Positions 2,181 through 41,048 of a stretch of DNA of 41,048 bases are shown piece by piece (the stretch's first letter is position 1; every line of letters starts with the position of its first letter). Source of the stretch: a virus; the IMG/VR virus record IMGVR_UViG_3300034107_001011, positions 1-41,048 of that record. One strand, written 5' to 3'. The notes beneath the pieces were generated by a model that worked only from the letters and a program-made list of their open reading frames with translations, was not told the DNA's origin and did not search any database. The position numbers and the translations under genes are program-made.

Positions 2181-2707
2181 AGCGAATCATTGCCGTTTGC
2201 CTTGCGTTGGTTCTGGCTATGGGTGCCTCCCCGATGGATTTGGGGAACATTCAGAGTCGATCTTTGCCAGTTTTATCAGAGCCTAGTTGGACGTTCTCTG
2301 ATGCTGGAAGCACGTATTTCATAGGCAAGTTAAGCGGCAATGTCATTATTGTGAGATCGGGGGACAACCCGTCCCCCGCTCCCATACCTCCACCGATTCC
2401 TGACGAGAACAAGCCAGTCCCAATCGCTGGTGCCAAGTGGTTTAGCGTGATTGTCGATGCCAACAAGCCGGAGCAACAGGCATGGCGAACCGATGCAAAA
2501 TTGCGAAAGGCTCTGTCAGATCGAGGGATCGAGTTCAGGTCGTATACAAGCGAGGAAGCGGACATAAACACACTCGGCTTTCAGACTATCGTTGGGCAAA
2601 CAGGCATGCCGTGCGTGATTGTTCAGGGCGAGATGGGAAACACTTTGAAGTCGATCAGCCCGAAGACGATTGATGATATCCAAAAGATTGCCGAGGTACT
2701 CAAATGA
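2177..2707 (+). CDS. Secreted thioredoxin-fold-like protein
   Basis: A 176-aa protein. The start at 2177 overlaps the previous stop and gives a clear signal peptide: Lys-Arg, then a hydrophobic core (IIAVCLALVLAMGAS) with cleavage likely near residue 18-22. A Pro-rich linker follows near residues 70-85, then a domain of about 90 residues with an alternating beta/helix pattern ending in a GQTGMPCVIV segment, resembling a thioredoxin-fold core with a cis-Pro region but without a CxxC pair. It is ATGA-coupled to the cysteine protease, suggesting joint action in the cell envelope. The fold call is visual only. Confidence 0.5.
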   Translation: MKRIIAVCLALVLAMGASPMDLGNIQSRSLPVLSEPSWTFSDAGSTYFIGKLSGNVIIVRSGDNPSPAPIPPPIPDENKPVPIAGAKWFSVIVDANKPEQQAWRTDAKLRKALSDRGIEFRSYTSEEADINTLGFQTIVGQTGMPCVIVQGEMGNTLKSISPKTIDDIQKIAEVLK

Positions 2708-3498
2708 GCCTTGATGTATGGATAGTACCCAACGGCGATCCACGGTTCCTCGGCAGTTTCCCTGCCCCTAACGGACTTAAACTTTCAACGAAATTCGTCT
2801 TACCTGATTTGCTCGATTCCGAAATCAAAGAGTTCGATTTACGAACTAACCCAGGCTATCCCGTATGCGTCAAAGATCAAAACGGCAGGGGTGCTTGCAA
2901 CGGTCATGCCGCAGCGTCGAGCTTTGAAGATGCTTGGTGGATCGCAGGGCAACCGTATAAACCCATGTCAGCATGGTCAATTTATGCGCCTTTGTGCAAC
3001 GGATGGGACGTTGGCTCAAGTATTGCAGAGGCATTGCAGCTGCTCCAAGAAAAAGGCGTCTCAGAAGAGGCTCTGGTTCCCTATGGCACCATCAATCCCA
3101 ACAATTTGAGCCGGGCGGCTTTAACCAATCGTGGACGATACCGGATTGAAATTGGTTGCAAGCTGACCTCATTTCGAGATATGGTTGTCGCTTCGCATAT
3201 GCGGTTGCCGTTTAACTTTTCCGTTCCCGTAAATAGTGGATTCAACAATCTTGACGCTGAAGGCGTACCTAACAACAGGCCCGGCGTTCACAATCATGCT
3301 GTTTCTGGTGGATTTGCCTTGAAATGGTCGGCCAAGTACAAATGGTTGATCCCAACACGCAATTCCTGGTCGGAAAAATGGGGCTTGAAAGGTTACTTCA
3401 ATACCGCTGAAAAGACGGTACAAGGCACGCATTTTGATGCTTATTGCGTCATGGCGACAATCACCGACCCAGAAGGCTTGCCTCCAGCAATCAGGTAA
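2704..3498 (+). CDS. Papain-like (C1A family) cysteine protease
   Basis: A 264-aa protein with the C1A catalytic set in order. The oxyanion Gln and nucleophile lie in DQNGRGACNGHA (Q59, C65), the catalytic His in VHNHAVSGG (H198), and the Asn in TRNSWSEKWGLKGYF (N220), where papain has NSWGxxWGxxGY. The length matches a mature C1 peptidase with a short N-terminal extension and no signal peptide. It follows several small membrane proteins and a secreted protein, where phages usually place the endolysin, and no muramidase or amidase is seen in the window. A lytic role against a protein-rich envelope is inferred; virion proteolysis is the alternative. Confidence 0.85.
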   Translation: MSLDVWIVPNGDPRFLGSFPAPNGLKLSTKFVLPDLLDSEIKEFDLRTNPGYPVCVKDQNGRGACNGHAAASSFEDAWWIAGQPYKPMSAWSIYAPLCNGWDVGSSIAEALQLLQEKGVSEEALVPYGTINPNNLSRAALTNRGRYRIEIGCKLTSFRDMVVASHMRLPFNFSVPVNSGFNNLDAEGVPNNRPGVHNHAVSGGFALKWSAKYKWLIPTRNSWSEKWGLKGYFNTAEKTVQGTHFDAYCVMATITDPEGLPPAIR

Positions 3499-7238: not shown

Positions 7239-8084
7239 ATGGGAATCAACGATGCCCTAAATTTTCTGACTCAAAATGCCGTAACGGTGACTGGCAAAGG
7301 CAAAGGTTTGCTTCAGGGTGGTGGCAGAACGATCAGCATGAGCCAGCAGGAGTTTGACCGGGCCAACAAGGTTGCCTTGGATGCAGTCGCCACATTTGCC
7401 GTTTCTGCCGTCAAGAGCATGCTTTCTCGACCATTTCCCCCGTCATCCGCGCCAGGCGATTCACCAGCACGCAGAACAGGTACGTTGCGAGATTCCATCC
7501 ACTGGCGTGTAGGGCGATCCAGCAGGCAGTTTCCAGGCCCAGTCCCAAGGGATATGTCTCCTGCATCGATCAAGCGATTCAAGGCTGATGATCCTGACAA
7601 ATACGGTTGGTATAAAGAAATCAAGAATCGTGCATATAAAGATAGGTCGATCATTCAGCCATATCCAAAAGCTGATGTTGCAAGGGATATCGTTCGTGTG
7701 ATTGAGGTTGATCCCAGTGCGCCTGATCGCTCTGATCGGCAAAGACTGGAGTATTATAGCTATTACCTCGAAACAGGATGGCATAGCAATCGGAATAAGC
7801 AGTTTCGCGATAAAGGCACAAAGAATGCGGCACCTGTAAGGGTGAATACGGCACGCCCACAGCGAAACACCAGTATTGGTGGCTGGAATCCACCTCGCCC
7901 TTATTTGATGAAATTGGCTCGCCCCAATTACAAAGCGGCGATGGAAGTCTTATATCAACAAGTGTTGATGCGTGAACTACCCATGAATTTGCGAAGTTTA
8001 GCATTTCGCGCACGCCTTACGGTGACCTACAATCATTCATTACGAGTGCCGTATGTCTCAAACAACAAGGCTTTACTGGATTAA
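7239..8084 (+). CDS. Neck / tail completion protein, HK97 gp10-like
   Basis: A 281-aa protein, long for this family (usually 130-160 aa). Family features are the ARRTGTLRDSIHWRVG segment (residues about 76-91), a YYSYYLETGWH segment near 178-188 and a NPPRPYLMKLARP end near 223-235. The extra length lies in an N-terminal helix and an insert at residues 110-165. ATG 7239 is chosen over 7215, which would overlap the previous gene by 22 bases without a better ribosome site. Confidence 0.72.
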   Translation: MGINDALNFLTQNAVTVTGKGKGLLQGGGRTISMSQQEFDRANKVALDAVATFAVSAVKSMLSRPFPPSSAPGDSPARRTGTLRDSIHWRVGRSSRQFPGPVPRDMSPASIKRFKADDPDKYGWYKEIKNRAYKDRSIIQPYPKADVARDIVRVIEVDPSAPDRSDRQRLEYYSYYLETGWHSNRNKQFRDKGTKNAAPVRVNTARPQRNTSIGGWNPPRPYLMKLARPNYKAAMEVLYQQVLMRELPMNLRSLAFRARLTVTYNHSLRVPYVSNNKALLD

Positions 8085-21988: not shown

Positions 21989-22179
21989 CGGCACTCCTTG
22001 CAACGACTATCCGCAAAGCCATATCGCATATATTCGTGATCACCAACTTCACGCCCACAGATACGGCACCAGTCCTTATGAGATGGCTTGCTCATGTTGA
22101 TGCAATACCGATCCCATTCCCTCTCGTTCATTCTGCACTCAGGTGGCTTTCCCCGTTCAATCATCGCTTCTTTGCTCAT
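21985..22179 (-). CDS. Small zinc-ribbon protein
   Basis: A 64-aa protein with a C-terminal CRICG...CKECR pair set (WCRICGREVGDHEYMRY, SRCKECR), a treble-clef or zinc-ribbon-like module. ATG 22179 has GAGG 6 bases upstream and lies in the end of the previous gene. It forms a pair with the 44-aa Cys-rich gene. Confidence 0.62.
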   Translation of the reverse strand: MSKEAMIERGKPPECRMNEREWDRYCINMSKPSHKDWCRICGREVGDHEYMRYGFADSRCKECR

Positions 22180-22414
22180 TTTGATCCTCAAGCACTTCTT
22201 TCGCGATTGTTAGATATTGCTCAGACGTAAAATCTTCTGCGTTAGGATCCGGTGGCGAAATGACCTCTTTCATATCGCTGGCCCATACCTGAGCCACATT
22301 CAGGTCATGCATTGCCAGTTCCAAGGCTGTTTCCATCAGCAACATCTTGTTGTACATCGCTGTGATCGTCGCTCTCGCTTCTTCCAGATTCTGCACAGGT
22401 GGATATTCGTCCAT
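22157..22414 (-). CDS. Helical protein of unknown function
   Basis: An 85-aa acidic helical protein. AGAAGGAG is 6 bases before ATG 22414, one of the best ribosome sites in the operon, yet the start lies 110 bases inside the frame of the CsrA-like gene. Not recognised. Confidence 0.58.
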   Translation of the reverse strand: MDEYPPVQNLEEARATITAMYNKMLLMETALELAMHDLNVAQVWASDMKEVISPPDPNAEDFTSEQYLTIAKEVLEDQNEQRSDD

Positions 22415-22595
22415 CAGTAACTCCTTCTAAAGTGTCTATTTCTCGCCTCCAGAACATCGTGTCAAACGATTTACCCAAACAGCCGATCTTGACCTGACCA
22501 TTTTTATCGATCTTGGTGACCGTGATCGTGGCAATCCATTCGCCATTATGGCGTATGATCAGGTCTTCATGCCTCTTCCGTGCAAGTACCAACAT
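22305..22595 (-). CDS. CsrA-like RNA-binding regulator 1
   Basis: A 96-aa protein. The start MLVLARKRHEDLIIR and the strand pattern IATITVTKIDKNGQVKIGCLGK then FWRREIDTLE match CsrA/RsmA, which binds GGA in hairpin loops near ribosome sites. The usual RxxI end of strand 1 and the RE near residue 51 are recognisable; the usual PxxVxVxR segment is altered. A 38-residue extension without similarity overlaps the next gene. It lies 3 bases after the thyX stop, with AAAGGTG upstream. Confidence 0.75.
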   Translation of the reverse strand: MLVLARKRHEDLIIRHNGEWIATITVTKIDKNGQVKIGCLGKSFDTMFWRREIDTLEGVTDGRISTCAESGRSESDDHSDVQQDVADGNSLGTGNA

Positions 22596-22598
22596 GGG

Positions 22599-23405
22599 TT
22601 ACACCTTTGGATAAGTGAGTTCTACCGATTTCCTGCCGTCAACATCCACAATGATGCTGACATCCTGCATGCAATTTGGGGCAATCTCTACGAGCTTTTC
22701 AGCAATCACAACAGCCAGTCGCCTGATCTCAAGATCGGCGTGAATCGAGCCACGAAGGGCTATGATATGTCGCCATGCTCGTAGGTTAGCGGTCATGAAC
22801 ATGTGCGTTTCTGTGGCATTTGGCAAGATCGCCCGTGCAGACTCTCTCGCTCGCTTTCGGATCAATGTCAGATCTTTCTTGTCAGCATGCACGCCGGGGT
22901 TTGCCATCAACCATCGCTCGGATTCGTACTGAGTCCCTGCCACCACAGCACTCTGATATTCCTCCCAAGCTGATTGGAACGATGCGGCAAAATACGTCTT
23001 CTGGTTGTCGTCCTCAATCGCCAGAGGTGGCAATACAAAGCCAACATCTTCAGGCTCATAGTAACGCTGGGATAGCTCAGAGAATGCCGTTCCTGCCCTG
23101 TGCCGAATCATTTCATGCGTCAGGCTACGACTGATCCCCGTAAATATAAACCCAACGTATGAATGTTCAAGGATAGAGCCATGCCCCATTTCCAGTACAT
23201 TCTTCAGATACGTTTTTTGACCACCTGGACGAGGGTTCTTGAACGACTGGTAGCAAAGCCTTCCGGCAACTTCAGGAATACTATCCAGACCAGAGTTCGA
23301 GCAATATATATCCGTACTTAGATTCGCGTATTCAAGCACACTGGTTGACCCAACCAGGCTGTTGCAAGACGCAAGAATCACTTTCGGTTCTTCGATCAAT
23401 CTCAT
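22599..23405 (-). CDS. thyX: Flavin-dependent thymidylate synthase
   Basis: A 268-aa protein that methylates dUMP to dTMP using FAD and methylenetetrahydrofolate. The ThyX signature is present as RHRAGTAFSELSQRY (residues 101-115), one residue longer than the classical RHRxxSxxxxSxRY. Upstream MGHGSILEHSYVGF is the other hallmark. The later RANLRAWRHII-type region (NLRAWRHI) is also seen. It supplies thymidine for phage DNA synthesis. ATG 23405 overlaps the previous stop by 4 bases. Confidence 0.93.
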   Translation of the reverse strand: MRLIEEPKVILASCNSLVGSTSVLEYANLSTDIYCSNSGLDSIPEVAGRLCYQSFKNPRPGGQKTYLKNVLEMGHGSILEHSYVGFIFTGISRSLTHEMIRHRAGTAFSELSQRYYEPEDVGFVLPPLAIEDDNQKTYFAASFQSAWEEYQSAVVAGTQYESERWLMANPGVHADKKDLTLIRKRARESARAILPNATETHMFMTANLRAWRHIIALRGSIHADLEIRRLAVVIAEKLVEIAPNCMQDVSIIVDVDGRKSVELTYPKV

Positions 23406-23779
23406 GAAATCCATCCTTTCGCTCTTCTCAACACATCAACAGTTGTGCATATCCATTCCACAGCATCTGATATGGCAAGACTGGGTTCTATAGGCACATG
23501 CGTCCACCAGAATGCTGCTTCCTTATCATGCTCTGTCATATGCTCTTTGATGCCACATCTGAAGTAATGCTCGGCAAATGCAATCAGGCAGTGAATTTCC
23601 CATGCTGTATGACCGGAATTGCTCAGATATGGTTCGATGCATGTGCTTGAAAACTGCCAGAACTCCATTGGAACCGCAGGACATTCATCTCGCCCCGGTA
23701 GCAGATAGTACTCAGGACACTCAAACGCATCAGCCCGATCCATGCATGTATGACAGTAGCACCAAAGATCGTGTGTCAT
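23402..23779 (-). CDS. Cys-rich protein of unknown function
   Basis: A 125-aa protein. The N-terminus (LWCYCHTCMDRADAFECPEYY) has several Cys and may bind a metal; the rest is helical with Trp/His-rich segments. ATGA overlap with the AP2-domain gene. Not recognised. Confidence 0.6.
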   Translation of the reverse strand: MTHDLWCYCHTCMDRADAFECPEYYLLPGRDECPAVPMEFWQFSSTCIEPYLSNSGHTAWEIHCLIAFAEHYFRCGIKEHMTEHDKEAAFWWTHVPIEPSLAISDAVEWICTTVDVLRRAKGWIS

Positions 23780-24291
23780 GCCTTCTCCTCCCTTTCTCTC
23801 AACAGTCGCTCAATTGTAGGCCTTGCTCTGGATCGACCCCGTTTGATACGGATGACATGCGTCCAGTCAATCACGCCCTCGTCAACCAGTTCTGCTGCCG
23901 GAATAGAACACAGAACCGCAAGATCTTTGCGCATCTCAGACTCAATTCCGTTGTACCACCGGGCAGCTTCAACAGCAGTGTCAAAGGTTTCTACGTAGTG
24001 CTTACGATCCAGTTCAACCCGCCCCATCCACTTATTCCGGTAATAGCTGATTCCGCACAAGCCATAAGCCATGTTGCGTTTGGTCAGACGGGCCAAGTGA
24101 GGTGCAACTGAATCAGTACCACCTATCAAGTTCCGAATCTTCACCGGAATCGGCAGGGCGGCATCAAGCTCCCATTCTTCTGGCACAATCCCCGATTTCC
24201 GCTTGCAATCCATTGCATATGCAATTCGCTTATCCATGTAAGCTCGATAGCGTGGATCTTCGTTTGTGTCTACAAAGTTTGGTCGCGTCAT
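23776..24291 (-). CDS. AP2/ERF-type DNA-binding domain protein
   Basis: A 171-aa protein. Residues 76-117 carry the AP2 pattern: YGLCGISYYRNKWMGRVEL then KHYVETFDTAVEAARWYN, three strands and a helix ending in AA..YN. In bacteria and phages this domain usually sits in HNH homing endonucleases; no HNH motif is seen here, so it may be a stand-alone binding protein. The C-terminus is basic (RIKRGRSRARPTIERLLRER). Confidence 0.75.
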   Translation of the reverse strand: MTRPNFVDTNEDPRYRAYMDKRIAYAMDCKRKSGIVPEEWELDAALPIPVKIRNLIGGTDSVAPHLARLTKRNMAYGLCGISYYRNKWMGRVELDRKHYVETFDTAVEAARWYNGIESEMRKDLAVLCSIPAAELVDEGVIDWTHVIRIKRGRSRARPTIERLLREREEKA

Positions 24292-24494
24292 GCCTTCTTG
24301 TTGTTTCTAGCGATGAGTTTCTCAATGTCAGGAAGGGAGTATTTGCTTTTTCGGATACCAACGAGCCATTTTCGGATCAGCCCCTGCCTTGCCATATTCC
24401 AAACAGTATGAGTGCCTGTCCCCATGCGTTTGGCAGCATCAGCCAACGTGATCCACTGTTCTGGGTGATCAACCGGATTGCTTGTTTTAGCCAT
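24288..24494 (-). CDS. Helix-turn-helix protein, excisionase/MerR-like
   Basis: A 68-aa protein with an ITLADAAKRMGTGTHTVWNMARQGLIRKWLVGIRKSKYSLPDIEKLI-type winged helix: the turn after TLADAAKRMG, the recognition helix, then a wing and a D-I-E-K-L end. Such genes are excisionases or small regulators. ATG 24494 follows AAGGGC at 6 bases; an earlier ATG at 24533 overlaps the helicase stop and would add 13 residues. Confidence 0.7.
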   Translation of the reverse strand: MAKTSNPVDHPEQWITLADAAKRMGTGTHTVWNMARQGLIRKWLVGIRKSKYSLPDIEKLIARNNKKA

Positions 24495-24529
24495 TTTCTT
24501 GCCCTTAAGACTTGTGATAGATATCGCCC

Positions 24530-26119
24530 TCATGAGTTGATCCGTAGACTTGAGATGGTTTCGGTAGCTTCCTGGAATGACATGTGCCGCGCTTTGTCCG
24601 GCTTAACCCCCAAAGATATGAGGTAATTCAGCTGACGCAGCGAACACAGGCCACCTGTACGACGACTAATGATCTTGCTGATCAATTCGCTTGCCTGACG
24701 CTTGGATATATTGCCCAGATCCCCCATGCCTGATTTGGCTAGGAAACTGATTTGTGGCTCGCTGGCAAGCTCTGAAAATGAGTTCGATGTGAGTTGATTC
24801 TGGTTGCTGCCCAGATTTATCATCGTTTGAAATGGGTTGACCTCAACCCGACGATACTCCATCGATTCCATCCGGCTCACAGGAACGTGAAAGATCCTGC
24901 GTTGTTTCTTATTCTCCTCGTTGCGTTCAATAGCCCCCCAGAGGTCGCCGTCATGGTCTTGATCCACCAGCTTATCAATCGCCTTGGCATCCTCTATATC
25001 AGCCACAGCAAGGCTTGCAGGGCCAACCAGATCAAGATCTGACGTATGGCTGAAGTCGATGACCAGACAATCTTTCTTTCCGGGAAATAACCTTGTTCCA
25101 CGCCCAACAGCCTGTGCATAGGCAACCCTCGAGCGGGTAGGTTTAAGGACAACGGTATCAGTCTCTTTATCATCAAACCCCTCTAGGAGTAACTGGCAAT
25201 TCACAAGGATCTGCAATCGACCCTTTTTGTAATCCTGAATTACCTGGTCTTTATCCTTACGATCACCACTAACCCAGTCGGCTCGAAAGCCAAGGTCTTT
25301 CAATGCATTCGCCATCGCCGTGCTTGATCCAACGCAGGGCATAAACACGATGATCTTCTGACGATCTGCTATTTCCTTGGCGATTGCGTTTGCAAAGATT
25401 TCAATGGCTGGCTGAATCCTCTTGCCAAGCTCAGCAGCGTCGAAATCACCTTTGTGACCAATAGTGCGGCACCCACGCAGATCAACGCCAACGTCACAGC
25501 GGACAAATCGGACAGGACTGAGAAATGGGCCTTGCGGGTCATGGATGGCATCGAACAGGTTATACGAGAAAACGACTTCGTCAAAATGCGTCATGTCCTT
25601 TCCATCAGGCCGATCAGGTGTTGCTGTGACTCCCAATAACTTGGCAGTGTCAAAATACTCCACCAATCCACGATATTGCTTGTTATCCCATGAAAAGTGG
25701 TGATGCTCGTCAACCAGGATCAGATCAAAATCCTTCGGCTCATATTTGGCCTTACGCACTGCCATCGACTGTACCGTAGAGCAGATAATGTTTGGGTTGC
25801 AGAGTGCCATGCCATGCTGAGATCCCTGCTCACGACCAACAGCCAGTCCGGCAAGTTCAAAGGTCTCGATAGCTTGTTTAACAAGTTCATTACGGTGAAC
25901 GACAAACAAGGCGCGGTTAATCTGCTCGGTGATCACCAGATTTCGGACTAGTTCAGCCATGACCACAGTTTTACCTGTACCCGTTGCCAGCACAAGACTT
26001 GCAGCCTTTCTGCCTTTTTCGTAGAAGTGGGTGGTCACCGACTCGATGGCTTTAGTCTGATAGTGGTGCGGAGTAAACGCAGAATCGTGCAAAGTCTCAA
26101 AGGCAAGCTCAGATGACAT
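24530..26119 (-). CDS. SF2 DNA helicase (DEAD/DEAH, type III restriction-like)
   Basis: A 529-aa ATPase. Q-motif-like YQTKAI, Walker A ATGTGKT (45-51), Walker B DEHH (137-140), motif III GVTATP (163-168) and motif VI QAVGRGTR are all present. The C-terminal 100 residues contain two copies of a pattern (PQISFLAKSGMG...ASELISKII and LRQLNYLISLGV...ATETISSL) seen at the ends of phage replication helicases. It likely unwinds DNA for phage replication or recombination. ATG 26119 has AAAGGGG upstream and overlaps the previous gene by 11 bases. Confidence 0.9.
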   Translation of the reverse strand: MSSELAFETLHDSAFTPHHYQTKAIESVTTHFYEKGRKAASLVLATGTGKTVVMAELVRNLVITEQINRALFVVHRNELVKQAIETFELAGLAVGREQGSQHGMALCNPNIICSTVQSMAVRKAKYEPKDFDLILVDEHHHFSWDNKQYRGLVEYFDTAKLLGVTATPDRPDGKDMTHFDEVVFSYNLFDAIHDPQGPFLSPVRFVRCDVGVDLRGCRTIGHKGDFDAAELGKRIQPAIEIFANAIAKEIADRQKIIVFMPCVGSSTAMANALKDLGFRADWVSGDRKDKDQVIQDYKKGRLQILVNCQLLLEGFDDKETDTVVLKPTRSRVAYAQAVGRGTRLFPGKKDCLVIDFSHTSDLDLVGPASLAVADIEDAKAIDKLVDQDHDGDLWGAIERNEENKKQRRIFHVPVSRMESMEYRRVEVNPFQTMINLGSNQNQLTSNSFSELASEPQISFLAKSGMGDLGNISKRQASELISKIISRRTGGLCSLRQLNYLISLGVKPDKARHMSFQEATETISSLRINS

Positions 26120-26507
26120 AGCCAGCCCCTTTGCACTCCATGCACTTGTCAACCTGAGCATTCTCTCCAGATCCACGGCAGTAGCTGCAAACAGCCCACT
26201 CAGTCGGTGGCGTGCAAAATCGTTTTAGCAGTCGCGTCACAAGTGGGCCGAGCTTTTCATCGTCAGGGATATAAGCAAACGCAATCGTCCGTATTTGGGC
26301 CAAGGTGCCACTGACCTCACGGTATAGCTCGTAATCTGCGGCAAGCCTCATGCGTGCCTCTGTGGGCAACTGTGTGCGAATGCGGTCATATGCTGCCAAA
26401 TCAATGTCGCCAGTCAGAATCATGTCTGATTTGACGAATGATGGTTGAACGTCCTGTGCGTTTCTCTCGGCATCCTCTATCAGCTTTTTAAGATCGTCGC
26501 CAGTCAT
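26109..26507 (-). CDS. Protein with DnaJ-type Cys-rich zinc motif
   Basis: A 132-aa protein. The C-terminus has two CxxCxGxG repeats (CSYCRGSG, CMECKGAG), the DnaJ zinc-centre signature, but no J domain. The first 100 residues are helical. AAAGGAG precedes ATG 26507. Placed between the SSB-like and helicase genes; a role in protein-DNA complex assembly at the fork is possible but unproven. Confidence 0.7.
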   Translation of the reverse strand: MTGDDLKKLIEDAERNAQDVQPSFVKSDMILTGDIDLAAYDRIRTQLPTEARMRLAADYELYREVSGTLAQIRTIAFAYIPDDEKLGPLVTRLLKRFCTPPTEWAVCSYCRGSGENAQVDKCMECKGAGYVI

Positions 26508-26561
26508 AATCCGTTCTCCTTTAAGAGCCAGTAGAGTGAGGATCAAAATAACCCTCACTAC

Positions 26562-26582
26562 ATTTGGTTAAAGCGTTGACAA
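26562..26582 (-). promoter_or_regulatory. Stoperator-like motif copy 3, after the SSB-like gene
   Basis: Read on the coding (minus) strand this is TTGTCAACGCTTTAACCAAA, nearly identical to copy 2, and it begins 1 base after the stop codon of the SSB-like gene. The exact 10-mer is 26572-26581. No promoter spacing is seen on the opposite strand. Confidence 0.75.
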
Positions 26583-26583
26583 G

Positions 26584-27258
26584 TTAGAACCCAAAGCTAT
26601 CAGGATTAGCACCCGATGATGCCCATGGAGGCTGCGCACTGCGCTCGGCAGACGCTTGAGGTGCGAAATTCACGGCAGAATTAGGCACTTGCTGACCGAA
26701 GGCATACTGCGGTTGAGTCGTGTTGCCATGCTTGGCTTTCCACTCGGTACTCGTCATGACAATCTTTTGCAACCGTTGTGGCAGCTTTTGAATGTCATCG
26801 CGTCTGACATCCCATTTGATCTCGGCAAGCTCTTCTTGGAACCGATCTGCTGATGGGAAAACAGCCTTAACCTTGTCGTAGGTCTTGGTCGTTCCATCAG
26901 ACTGCGGGGCATATGTATTTTCGATCTCCAGCCAGACAAATCTGCCAGCCAGACTTGTGACATCAAAAGCCAGTGCTTCGGCGTTGGACAAGGTACGACT
27001 TTCAATCGTCTCAATCATCTGACGCAGAGATGCCGAGGCGTGCATGGATGCCTTGAGAGGCTTATAGATGGTGGCATGCTTACCGGATGGGGCTTTGTGG
27101 TTGACTTCAAAAGCAATTTGCAAAGATGGCTCATCTTTATTCTGGAACTTATTCCAGATATTGCCAACGAATGCCACGGTACAAACCCTTGCCAAGTAGC
27201 GACCTGGAGGAATTGCAGCATAAGGAGTACCGTTGCCACCACCTGTTGAGAAATTCAT
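26584..27258 (-). CDS. DUF669-like single-strand DNA-binding protein
   Basis: A 224-aa protein. The pattern PPGRYLARVCTVAFV then EPSLQIAFEVNH then ESRTLSNAEALAFDVTSLAGRFVWLEIEN is that of the phage DUF669 family, whose genes lie beside helicases and primases. The C-terminal 50 residues are low-complexity and end in PDSFGF, comparable to the acidic-aromatic tip of SSB proteins. It probably coats single strands during replication or recombination. Confidence 0.75.
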   Translation of the reverse strand: MNFSTGGGNGTPYAAIPPGRYLARVCTVAFVGNIWNKFQNKDEPSLQIAFEVNHKAPSGKHATIYKPLKASMHASASLRQMIETIESRTLSNAEALAFDVTSLAGRFVWLEIENTYAPQSDGTTKTYDKVKAVFPSADRFQEELAEIKWDVRRDDIQKLPQRLQKIVMTSTEWKAKHGNTTQPQYAFGQQVPNSAVNFAPQASAERSAQPPWASSGANPDSFGF

Positions 27259-27259
27259 G

Positions 27260-28132
27260 TTAGCTCTTTCTTAGTTCTGTTTTCGCATCATCGACACTTA
27301 GGAACGCTCCCAGCAGCACCAATGCTTGCCAGAAACCAACGCCCCCATGCACCGATGTCCAGAGAATCGATCCATCACTACGTACCGAAGCGCTTGGCAC
27401 TCGGTCATCATCGCCGGGCCGGAAACAAGGAATCCAGCCACTTGGGTTTGCTCGGTTGGTCGCAAGTCGTAATCCATAACGCACAAGCACAGCTAGTTTG
27501 TCATGCACTTCAAAACCGCGATCAAATTCACTGCCAGTCGAAAAGAATAGACCAGTCGGTGAGTCTAACGGGACGGCAATAGCCTTTGGCTTTTGTTGCA
27601 AAGCCATAATCTCATCCATCAACCACTCAGGGCATCGTGCCAGATCAGAGTTAAGCGGATGTTTGCTACCCGTCCATTTATACTGTCGCCCTTTAGCATA
27701 TCGGCTCGGAGGGCATGTTGCCAAAGATCGGTCACCCAGTACCAAGATCTCCTCATGCTTGCCATCGCCTTTCCATATGCGGCATTTTCCTATGGGACGC
27801 TGAATGTACTCGGGCATGCGATACCACAAGTGACGACCACCCGATGAGGTGATAACTTGCCATGACACTGGCAGCACAGGCCTTGCCGCAAAATAGTTCC
27901 GAATCAACTCATCAGGCCCATCAAGATCGATAACGATCAAACGGCTAACAAGCCCCGGCAATGCAGCAATATTCTGTGGACTGAGTTCGTTCATAGCACT
28001 CGAGGGAAACCCGCTCCACCATTGACTTGTATAAATCTGGGGACGTTTCTCGCGATCATCCATCGGGACTGATTGAACACCATGTTTACGCAGTACATCA
28101 GCCCACTTAGCTCCCAGTCGTTTGGCTTGCAT
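27260..28132 (-). CDS. Primase-polymerase (prim-pol) domain protein
   Basis: A 290-aa protein of the bifunctional primase/polymerase N-terminal family. LIVIDLDGPDE holds the metal-binding Asp pair, SSGGRHLWYRMPE the SGG-H motif, and GDRSLATCPPSRYAKGRQYKW the later GxxxxxPPS region. It makes primers and may extend them. With the helicase and SSB-like genes it forms the replication core. No C-terminal helicase is fused. Confidence 0.85.
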   Translation of the reverse strand: MQAKRLGAKWADVLRKHGVQSVPMDDREKRPQIYTSQWWSGFPSSAMNELSPQNIAALPGLVSRLIVIDLDGPDELIRNYFAARPVLPVSWQVITSSGGRHLWYRMPEYIQRPIGKCRIWKGDGKHEEILVLGDRSLATCPPSRYAKGRQYKWTGSKHPLNSDLARCPEWLMDEIMALQQKPKAIAVPLDSPTGLFFSTGSEFDRGFEVHDKLAVLVRYGLRLATNRANPSGWIPCFRPGDDDRVPSASVRSDGSILWTSVHGGVGFWQALVLLGAFLSVDDAKTELRKS

Positions 28133-28316
28133 AGGGATTAATTGATGGTGCCACCAACTCTGATCTCAGCACAACGACATCCCTTCCCGCATCAATCCCA
28201 ACGCCAATCCCCATCGATCCACGATCATCCGTTATCACAACCCGTGCAATATGATGACCCGTCTTGCGGTCAAACAAATCAACGGATTGATTGATCTTAC
28301 GTCCCAATACAAGCAT
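28107..28316 (-). CDS. CsrA-like RNA-binding regulator 2
   Basis: A 69-aa protein, the normal CsrA length. MLVLGRKINQSVDLFDRKTG matches the first strands and HIARVVITDDRGSMGIGVGIDAGRDVVVLRSEL the rest, including the R-E-like end (RSEL). ATG 28316 has AAAGGAG 9 bases upstream. It lies second in the operon, so it is made early. The two CsrA-like proteins of the window are clearly diverged from each other. Confidence 0.82.
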   Translation of the reverse strand: MLVLGRKINQSVDLFDRKTGHHIARVVITDDRGSMGIGVGIDAGRDVVVLRSELVAPSINPYASQTTGS

Positions 28317-28342
28317 GAGTCCTATCTCCTTTAAGTACAGAA

Positions 28343-28876
28343 TCAGAATGCCGGCATATTGTTCAACGACTGAGCATAGTTCGCGACATTGTTTGGCAAA
28401 GAGTTCCAATGCTGGGCCAGCGCGGCACCCTGTTGCTGCCAGTTTGCATCATCAACGCTACCGTTGATAAAGACTCGGTAGAAGTAATTGACAAGGCTTT
28501 GAGGGCTGATTGCAAGCTCGTTGGACGTTGCAGCTAGGAAATCTCGGAAAGCATAACCAGTAGTCGGTTGTGCCGGAGTAGCCACCTTTGCCACAGGACT
28601 AATAGCCTGAGGATGCATCGTTTCGACCTGTACTTTCGGTACCAGATTTGGGCCATCAACGTCACGGCACTCCCATGCAATTCGGGCATCAACAGCCTGT
28701 TGAATCTTGTTGTAAATCTCTCCAATAAGATGTGGGAACTGATCATCGGTCATCGATGCCAGATTGGTCGTAATCTCAATATTCAGATTTGCCTCATATG
28801 AAGAGTAGTTGGGTCGGCCAACCTTCTTGGAAATTCCACAATTGATCTTGCATTCAGTATCATTCAGTGCAGGCAT
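28343..28876 (-). CDS. First gene of the early operon, unknown function
   Basis: A 177-aa protein not recognised. The first 60 residues have a strand/helix pattern (YEANLNIEITTNLASMTDDQFPHLIGEIYNKI), then a Pro-linker, then a helical C-terminal half with Asn/Gln. AAAGGA stands before ATG 28876. It is the first product of the strong leftward promoter and so a candidate early regulator or single-strand-annealing partner. Confidence 0.68.
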   Translation of the reverse strand: MPALNDTECKINCGISKKVGRPNYSSYEANLNIEITTNLASMTDDQFPHLIGEIYNKIQQAVDARIAWECRDVDGPNLVPKVQVETMHPQAISPVAKVATPAQPTTGYAFRDFLAATSNELAISPQSLVNYFYRVFINGSVDDANWQQQGAALAQHWNSLPNNVANYAQSLNNMPAF

Positions 28877-28986: not shown

Positions 28987-29015
28987 ACTATAGTAACTAT
29001 TGTCACGAATGTCAA
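28987..29015 (-). promoter_or_regulatory. Strong leftward sigma70-like promoter of the early operon
   Basis: On the minus strand, TTGACA (29010-29015), a 17-base spacer and TATAGT (28987-28992). A full -35 match and good -10. It would start transcription near 28980 and drive about 25 genes down to 17511. The sequence around -35 (GCATTGACATT) resembles the regulatory motif complement (GCGTTGACATT). Confidence 0.82.
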
Positions 29016-29098
29016 TGCAAAGAATCCAGATAATCGAAATAATTCTGGCGACCTGATCTTGGTCACGCAAACAATCCAAACAATCCAAATAATTTCTA

Positions 29099-29127
29099 TT
29101 GACGTATGGAGAGTCGTCGCCTATACT
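29099..29127 (+). promoter_or_regulatory. Rightward sigma70-like promoter
   Basis: TTGACG (29099-29104), 17 bases, TATACT (29122-29127). It would produce a leader of about 45 bases before the ATG at 29180. It faces away from the leftward early promoter. Confidence 0.8.
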
Positions 29128-39900: not shown

Positions 39901-40716
39901 ATGGCTTACGATATCCCACAATATTCCACCGATGAACTAGTGACCTACATTCAGAAGAATAGACTTCTGACTTCTGGCATAAACAATGTGAAGCTTGCCA
40001 AGTCTTACGGTTACGGATACTTGGTTTACAATCTATCGTTAATGCCTTGGAAATATAGTGGTTACCAGACTTGCCCAAATGGCCAGTCTTGTCATGCTGA
40101 CTGTATCGGCCATAAGTCTGGAAACAATGTTTTCAAGACTACCCAAATAGCTAAAATAAAGCGCACCCAAGCTTTTTTCAAGGTTAGAGACGAGTTTATG
40201 AGAGTCTTGCAGGAAGACTTGGATAAAGCTTCAATTCGTACGATTGACACATCTATTGTTGTAGCATGTAGGTTAAACACCTATTCCGATATTCAATGGG
40301 AATCGGTAGCCGTCACTAATACCGATAATTTTATTGACCGGAACTATGGAACAATGTTTTACGATTATACCAAGCTTTTTAGTAGGGTATCCGTAAGGGC
40401 TTGCAAGAGGTCAAATTACGATTTGACCTATTCCCTATCGGCCCAACGCCATAACATGGAACATATCAACGATATTGCAAGATATCAACGATGCGCTTTA
40501 GTAGTCTCTAGAGATATCTACAAAAAAGTTAAGCAGAATTTTTCCAGCGATGAACGATTCAATCGGAACGGATTGAATTACTACAATGGCGAAGAACATG
40601 ACCTTACGTTTATTTGGCCGAAGAATGGTGTTTTAGTCTTAAAAGAGAAGTATGTGAAAACACCACAAGAACCTAGCCCACTTGTTTATCGGTCACTAGA
40701 GTCTATCGGATTATGA
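39901..40716 (+). CDS. GP88-family protein
   Basis: A 271-aa protein of the phage/plasmid GP88 type, function unknown. The family pattern is seen in order: TSGINNVKLAKS, LSLMPWKYSGYQTCPNGQSC with C58/C64/C68, the KTTQIAKIKRTQAFF helix, CRLNTYSDIQWES, and MFYDYTKLFSRV, then a DLTYSLSAQ strand. Three conserved Cys suggest a metal or cluster site. It is common on plasmids and phages. The gene has its own promoter and terminator. Confidence 0.8.
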   Translation: MAYDIPQYSTDELVTYIQKNRLLTSGINNVKLAKSYGYGYLVYNLSLMPWKYSGYQTCPNGQSCHADCIGHKSGNNVFKTTQIAKIKRTQAFFKVRDEFMRVLQEDLDKASIRTIDTSIVVACRLNTYSDIQWESVAVTNTDNFIDRNYGTMFYDYTKLFSRVSVRACKRSNYDLTYSLSAQRHNMEHINDIARYQRCALVVSRDIYKKVKQNFSSDERFNRNGLNYYNGEEHDLTFIWPKNGVLVLKEKYVKTPQEPSPLVYRSLESIGL

Positions 40717-40781
40717 GGTTTTTTATCGTCGCCATTTTGATTGCCTGTATCATTGAAAACAGTTTCCCAAAGTCAAAATAA
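40713..40781 (+). CDS. 22-aa hydrophobic peptide coupled to GP88
   Basis: A very short frame whose ATG overlaps the GP88 stop (ATGA). The peptide is a single membrane-like helix (RFFIVAILIACIIE) with a short polar tail. It ends 6 bases before the terminator stem. Such coupling suggests translation, but the size leaves doubt; it could be a small toxin-like or membrane-anchor peptide. Confidence 0.45.
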   Translation: MRFFIVAILIACIIENSFPKSK

Positions 40782-40787
40782 CCAAGT

Positions 40788-40816
40788 AACCTGCCAGCAA
40801 TGGCAGGTTTTTTTTG
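40788..40816 (+). terminator. Strong intrinsic terminator after GP88
   Basis: AACCTGCCA pairs perfectly with TGGCAGGTT around a GCAA tetraloop and is followed by a run of T (8 in total with the stem end). A textbook intrinsic terminator. Confidence 0.92.
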
Positions 40817-40819
40817 TTT

Positions 40820-41048
40820 CCTGCCAGCCCTGAGGGCTGGCAGATCATGGCAGATCATATCAACAGGGCACCTGCCAGCCCTGAGGGCTGGCAGATCATG
40901 GCAGATCATATCAACAGGGCACCTGCCAGCCCTGAGGGCTGGCAGATCATGGCAGATCATATCAACAGGGCACCTGCCAGCCCTGAGGGCTGGCAGATCA
41001 TGGCAGATCATATCAACAGGGCACCTGCCAGCCCTGAGGGCTGGCAGA
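40820..41048. repeat. 4.5 perfect copies of a 51-bp hairpin repeat at the window end
   Basis: Units start at 40820, 40871, 40922 and 40973 and a partial one at 41024; all visible copies are identical. Each unit holds CTGCCAGCCC-TGA-GGGCTGGCAG (10-bp stem, 3-base loop) and two copies of GGCAGATCAT. The stem resembles the preceding terminator stem. The window ends inside the array, so the true copy number is unknown. Confidence 0.9.

Follow-up and report, generated by a model that had tools for sequence, protein, structure and literature searches.

In Escherichia coli, csrA has been reported to repress itself at its own Shine-Dalgarno sequence (PMC7652899). Phages can carry the gene too; csrA was counted in 30 of 2517 phages (PMC7366521), and phage CsrA has been proposed to act against CRISPR-Cas (PMC8450108). 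As for the purpose of phage CsrA, the published idea is host gene control, together with one knockdown phenotype. Here, we describe a single IMG/VR record of 41,048 bp, IMGVR_UViG_3300034107_001011 (the window, meaning this whole stretch), a genome of the tailed-phage type that has an integrase and a terminase and whose early operon, on the minus strand, encodes two diverged CsrA-like proteins, P0002 and P0001. A phage CsrA is in itself known; new are the two copies and a covarying candidate self-site. Among the open papers that searches brought up, judged by title and the opening of the abstract, none dealt with two CsrAs in one phage or with a hairpin in a phage csrA leader, preprints and most subscription journals being outside this scope.

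The presence of two such open reading frames (ORFs) in one operon had been claimed in an earlier note made from the sequence alone, and it is confirmed here, both lying on the minus strand at the coordinates given. Their N-termini, which the note gave as MLVL.RK, read MLVLARK and MLVLGRK. P0002 is indeed gene 2, behind a sigma70-like promoter, and P0001 begins 3 nt past the thyX stop. The strong divergence between them is likewise borne out, with no BLASTP alignment and 24% identity in a common alignment. A sister phage, L003, carries both genes (P0002 80% and P0001 85% identical to the window) in DNA that is 84–88% identical to the window across long stretches. P0002 matches the Pfam family CsrA (PF02599) at 28.4 bits, above the curated cut-off of 27. 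For P0001 the same family is the only match, at 22.6 bits against that cut-off (E 1e-4). Residues L4, R6, and R44 are present in P0002 and, by alignment, in P0001. R6 is important in CsrA. L4 and R44 are also described as important (PMC7652899). An alignment of 13 phage CsrAs is invariant at M1, L2, R6, one glycine, the R44 equivalent, and a glutamate two positions later (the E46 equivalent); L4, kept in both window proteins, is a valine in L011 and L051. As a single query, P0002 found no relative in viral contigs or INPHARED, and P0001 had one weak match in INPHARED (E 0.05).

AlphaFold models of both proteins contain the beta2–beta4 meander. The P0002 model, predicted from an alignment that contained canonical phage CsrAs, has a predicted local distance difference test score (pLDDT) of 80. 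Its top six Foldseek matches in the PDB are CsrA/RsmE (probability 1.00, E 0.02–0.1), and VIA-align gives Z 4.5–6.0 for seven CsrA/RsmA entries, the next unrelated entry being at 3.0. The P0001 model has a mean pLDDT of 66, with residues 1–40 at 80–90. No CsrA appeared among its top 50 Foldseek matches; VIA-align ranked seven CsrA/RsmA entries first (Z 4.4–5.6, next 3.5). A sequence search of the PDB with P0001 or its pair alignment returned no CsrA, and CsrA was matched with the group profile A3. Profile A6 also matches CsrA in the PDB, but it includes canonical phage CsrAs and hence is not independent. By sequence and predicted fold, P0002 is a member of the CsrA family; P0001 is probably a diverged one.

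Comparison with L003 gives 24 synonymous and 19 nonsynonymous changes in P0002, a ratio of nonsynonymous to synonymous rates (dN/dS) of 0.18. The 60-codon core of P0001 has 19 and 5 (dN/dS 0.05), indicating strong purifying selection comparable to that on the helicase (0.04). Because of these ratios, we do not regard either gene as a chance ORF. The 38-residue extension of P0001, to which the earlier note had drawn attention, fares differently. It overlaps the next gene (22157–22414) by 110 nt. In this stretch, synonymous and nonsynonymous changes number 2 and 11 in the tail frame (dN/dS 1.6) and 9 and 4 in the overlapped frame (dN/dS 0.08). With constraint on the overlapped frame and none on the tail frame, the extension is a by-product of the overlap. 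That it serves a function, for instance partner binding, is very improbable: although the tail frame remains uninterrupted in L003 and ends at the same stop, the pattern of changes speaks against it, as does a pLDDT below 50 across most of its residues.

Queries with thyX, primase, and CsrA reached 18 more records with the early operon beyond L003. The resulting group of 20 records falls into three lineages: A (16 records), B (L051 and L052), and C (the window and L003). The sample numbers of several records suggest a freshwater habitat; no search returned a habitat. The early CsrA is found in 19 of the 20 as the second gene of the replication operon, the only record without it, G014, being a contig that starts inside the helicase gene. 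Of 14 records retrieved with thyX or primase, 12 have a Pfam CsrA match above cut-off, as do all 11 retrieved with CsrA or primase. P0001, by comparison, occurs in two of the 20 group records, both of lineage C. When all loci collected by then were searched with a profile in six frames, no further CsrA copy was seen after thyX, and the ORFs after thyX in L013 and L051 are unrelated to P0001. Two CsrAs were never seen in 8 of the 9 remaining records searched (six CsrA-bearing ones outside the group; G015 without CsrA). One query of INPHARED gave 80 csrA places in 80 records, i.e., one copy each. Alignments of primase and helicase were also used in two scans of genome contigs aimed at the host; neither returned a relative, and no host is assigned. 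As far as these genomes tell, the early csrA is a standing core gene of the group's replication operon and P0001 is a lineage-specific extra copy. One record, L097 (CAKLQH020000034.1), is filed as an Acinetobacter phage; with thrA-csrA-rnhB around the match, it resembles a bacterial chromosome contig.

A hairpin with a GGA loop holds the early csrA Shine-Dalgarno sequence in 16 relatives read, of 17, from lineages A and B. All 14 lineage A leaders read (L007–L018, L061, and L062; 15 have csrA) carry TGATCAGGAGGATCA, a 5-bp stem (UGAUC-AGGAG-GAUCA) in which the AGGAG loop doubles as the Shine-Dalgarno sequence. Both lineage B records have CGAC-AGGAG-GTCG instead (CGAC-AGGAG-GUCG as RNA). Between the two lineages, three stem pairs are replaced on both sides and the loop is unchanged; in an ungapped alignment of eight leaders, AGGAG is the sole invariant stretch. 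With lineage C included, 92% of stem cells are paired and four of the five pairs change on both sides somewhere. The covariation score, counted over five distinct rows including lineage C, is 0.90 versus 0.27 after shuffling, with none of 500 shuffles reaching the observed value; slid controls reach at most 0.16, and flank shuffles attain the observed sum of pairs with a probability of 2.5e-5. L007 and L011 agree in all 15 nt of the hairpin, while the surrounding leader has diverged and their csrA synonymous sites are saturated. Stems of at least 4 bp occur at other Shine-Dalgarno sequences at a low background rate. When leaders were ranked by energy (nine csrA rows; those of L008, L010, L051, and L060 were left out by the start-choice rule), the csrA hairpin came first in L007, L011, L012, and L018, second in the window and L003, and 3 of 9, 8 of 15, and 9 of 17 in L053, L055, and L059, respectively. 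The csrA of L055, a phage record of 153 kb that is unrelated, also shows a GGA loop, on a stem of 4 bp. Beside it, genes at 7562 and 7938 (minus strand) bear 7- and 5-bp GGA-loop hairpins at the Shine-Dalgarno sequence and are possible CsrA targets. The hairpin of the relatives looks like a classical CsrA site, which suggests that the early csrA limits its own production.

Several observations weigh against this interpretation. The lineage C hairpin is weak, CUUA/UAGG with four pairs, one of them G-U, and an A-A mismatch at the loop. The alternative fold in the window and L003 is a 3-bp GAG-AUAGGA-CUC stem of -1.6 kcal/mol, and it is in the window phage itself that the hairpin is weakest. In the same loci, four of 20 non-csrA AGGAG Shine-Dalgarno sequences also pair at at least four of the five positions; the case for the hairpin therefore rests on the exchange from lineage A to B, and covariation comes from three lineages only. 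GGA-loop hairpins in the window number 32 against a shuffle mean of 22.6 and maximum of 31 (20 shuffles), a slight excess at most, and in eight relative loci the counts are at shuffle level. Five named-phage csrA leaders that contain GGA have stems of 1–2 bp, and two Vibrio phage csrA leaders have no GGA. The small number of lineages, the other AGGAG sites that pair, and the weak window version would all fit a different account, namely that the hairpin folds by chance or serves as an operator in DNA, its letters kept through the Shine-Dalgarno sequence and shared descent, with CsrA inactive on its own mRNA. That the lineage A sequence is near-palindromic would suit an operator as well. However, lineage B has replaced three pairs on both sides of the same loop, and a DNA operator would hardly be expected to keep a palindrome of altered letters exactly around a Shine-Dalgarno loop. 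We therefore consider this account rather unlikely.

The earlier note had called for a search for GGA hairpins near phage ribosome sites and had considered that the proteins might regulate phage mRNAs. The former turned up the early csrA leader of the relatives with little excess genome-wide. The latter draws indirect backing from the covarying hairpin on that leader, with the reservation that it is weak in the window. No decoy RNA of the CsrB/RsmY type was detected in the window by Rfam and none was obvious from GGA density; Rfam gave two mir-2012 matches, far below the gathering score and on terminal repeats.

The start of the Prim-Pol gene lies inside csrA, by 26 nt (window, L051) to 44 nt (L012), and all eight primase leaders read are devoid of a Shine-Dalgarno sequence. 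Because the primase starts within csrA and has no such sequence of its own, a brake on csrA probably passes to primase translation. The two copies in the window also differ at this point: the Shine-Dalgarno sequence of P0002 contains GGA, and that of P0001, AAAGG, does not, so that P0001 would escape the feedback. A division of labour, as the earlier note had imagined, is thus plausible between a core P0002 with a GGA Shine-Dalgarno sequence and an extra copy without one.

As to the origin of P0001, an insertion of 5–6 residues after beta2 is common to P0001 and the early CsrAs of the group and is missing in L053, L055, L059, L060, and the named phage CsrAs. P0001 aligns with the early CsrA of L051 (36%, E 9e-8) but not with P0002, and trees pair it with the same protein (UFBoot 79; FastTree 0.91). 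On the other side, its branch is long and tree support is moderate; plasmid records gave no match in the search for its origin. These comparisons fit best with a csrA allele captured from a relative. Exchange of the early csrA is also apparent within lineage A. L007 and L012 are 99–100% identical over the 200 bases before csrA and 86–96% after it, versus 45–67% in the first 180 bases of csrA. Their csrA genes have dS 2.3 and dN 0.31, compared with 0.23 and 0.04 for the primase. In an 8.5-kb scan, comparably low identity was found only in the integrase and the integrase-to-operon region. The csrA of L008 is L012-like in its first 120 bases and L007-like thereafter, and looks like a recombinant of the two alleles. 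As judged from these identities, the early csrA shows allele exchange between near-identical phages, which would point to selection on the choice of CsrA targets. One could go further and regard csrA as an interchangeable allele cassette, whose self-bound hairpin throttles the replication operon while alleles are swapped, the window lineage stacking two, one under feedback and one free, to time replication; we hold this to be unlikely as a whole.

Our preferred explanation is that P0002 is a phage-adapted CsrA that a group of uncultured phages regularly keeps in its replication operon. It would bind the hairpin on its own Shine-Dalgarno sequence and repress its own translation, and this repression would carry over to the overlapping primase. 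P0001 would be another, diverged csrA from within the group, which lineage C acquired and which sits behind thyX, free of csrA feedback. We give this explanation, taken whole, an even chance. It would offer phage CsrA a phage-internal target, namely the short hairpin of its own csrA, for which a compensatory variant exists in nature and which is coupled to the primase. It is possible, if somewhat less than probable, that these proteins instead have their main targets in the host, either mRNAs for metabolism, motility, or defence (e.g., cas genes) or the antagonists of host CsrA, the hairpin only limiting dose; hijacking or titration of host control had been considered in the earlier note. Such an action on the host is what Campa et al. 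2021 put forward for phage RsmA/CsrA (PMC8450108). Knockdown of the PTXU04 csrA homologue is reported to give smaller plaques, and the homologue to be one of the genes whose expression was toxic or interfered with infection (PMC11879866). We also saw no convincing conserved GGA hairpin at any other gene of the window phage. Yet the early csrA sits inside the replication operon and overlaps the primase, and phage-internal control fits this at least equally well. P0001 might also be an antagonist that weakens the RNA binding of P0002 or host CsrA by dimerising with them, a form of the heterodimer raised in the earlier note. CsrA is reported to act as a dimer (PMC7652899), and the APxDV stretch before beta5, largely kept in P0002, is lost in P0001. 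But P0001 retains L4, R6, and R44, as an RNA binder would, and its core is under the strong constraint given above, which makes an antagonist quite improbable.

The early operon runs from the promoter through an unknown 177-aa gene, P0002, Prim-Pol, two unknown genes, the helicase, a helix-turn-helix gene, and more small genes to thyX and P0001 (Table 1). Directly upstream of the promoter, at 29066–29100, are TTTGGATTG repeats, kept in L003, a possible operator. The helicase gene of L013 (5044–7512) and other group A loci contain an intein-like in-frame insertion that starts with Cys and ends with HN-Cys; it is missing in the window and L007. In L018 (6780–8516) and L019 (1838–3574), thyX is split by ~900 bases, possibly an intein or a mobile insertion. 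At the contig end of the window (40703–41047), tandem repeats would give a repeated peptide if translated from the minus strand, and the ORF at 2704–3498 has, by eye, the look of a papain-type cysteine protease.

Table 1. Coordinates of the early operon features in the window and of the divergent csrA alleles in relatives
Feature	Position	Strand	Remark
sigma70-like promoter, early operon	28987..29015	-	TTGACA-17-TATAGT; consensus match only
Early operon gene 1	28343..28876	-	177 aa, unknown, kept across group
Early csrA Shine-Dalgarno region	28321..28335	-	aligned to relatives' GGA-loop hairpin; window CUUA-[AAGGAGA]-UAGG
Alternative weak hairpin	28317..28328	-	GAG-[AUAGGA]-CUC directly before early csrA start codon; -1.6 kcal/mol; identical in L003
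P0002, early CsrA-like gene	28107..28316	-	69 aa; operon gene 2; 26-nt overlap with Prim-Pol gene
Prim-Pol gene (PF09250)	27260..28132	-	start inside early csrA; no Shine-Dalgarno sequence
Helicase gene, early operon	24530..26176	-	
thyX (PF02511)	22599..23414	-	directly upstream of P0001
P0001, second CsrA-like gene	22305..22595	-	96-aa ORF; conserved core ~residues 1-58; 3 nt after thyX
Overlap of P0001 tail with next gene	22305..22414	-	constraint is on the other frame
Next gene	22157..22414	-	85 aa; no Pfam match; own Shine-Dalgarno sequence inside P0001
Early csrA alleles in near-identical phages	L007 3755-3973; L008 1428-1646; L012 2942-3160		far more diverged than flanks

Compared with bacterial CsrA/RsmA/RsmE (PF02599), the system shares the family profile and the predicted fold in P0002, the residues L4, R6, and R44, and, in the relatives, a GGA-loop hairpin on the Shine-Dalgarno sequence. 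It differs in the insertion after beta2 of the group proteins, in P0001, which is below the Pfam cut-off, has one extra residue, and is without the APxDV stretch, and in that no CsrB-like RNA was found in the window. As in E. coli csrA autoregulation, a candidate CsrA site overlaps the gene's own Shine-Dalgarno sequence; the E. coli leader is described with four sites (PMC7652899), whereas in the phage group there is a single hairpin, csrA is part of a phage operon, and the following gene starts inside it. The plasmid-borne RsmQ of Pseudomonas is likewise a CsrA homologue on a mobile element, reported to take regulatory control with host targets shown (PMC9928087), whereas the carrier here is a phage. 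With the phage CsrA/RsmA proteins of Pseudomonas F116 and phi297, Vibrio phages, and PTXU04, the group has in common that a phage genome carries a small gene of the CsrA family. Those named phages carry one copy (80 places in 80 records) that resembles host CsrA, and the seven csrA leaders read have no GGA hairpin of at least 4 bp. Unlike these copies, csrA of the group has diverged and belongs to the core of the replication operon, and the window has a second one.

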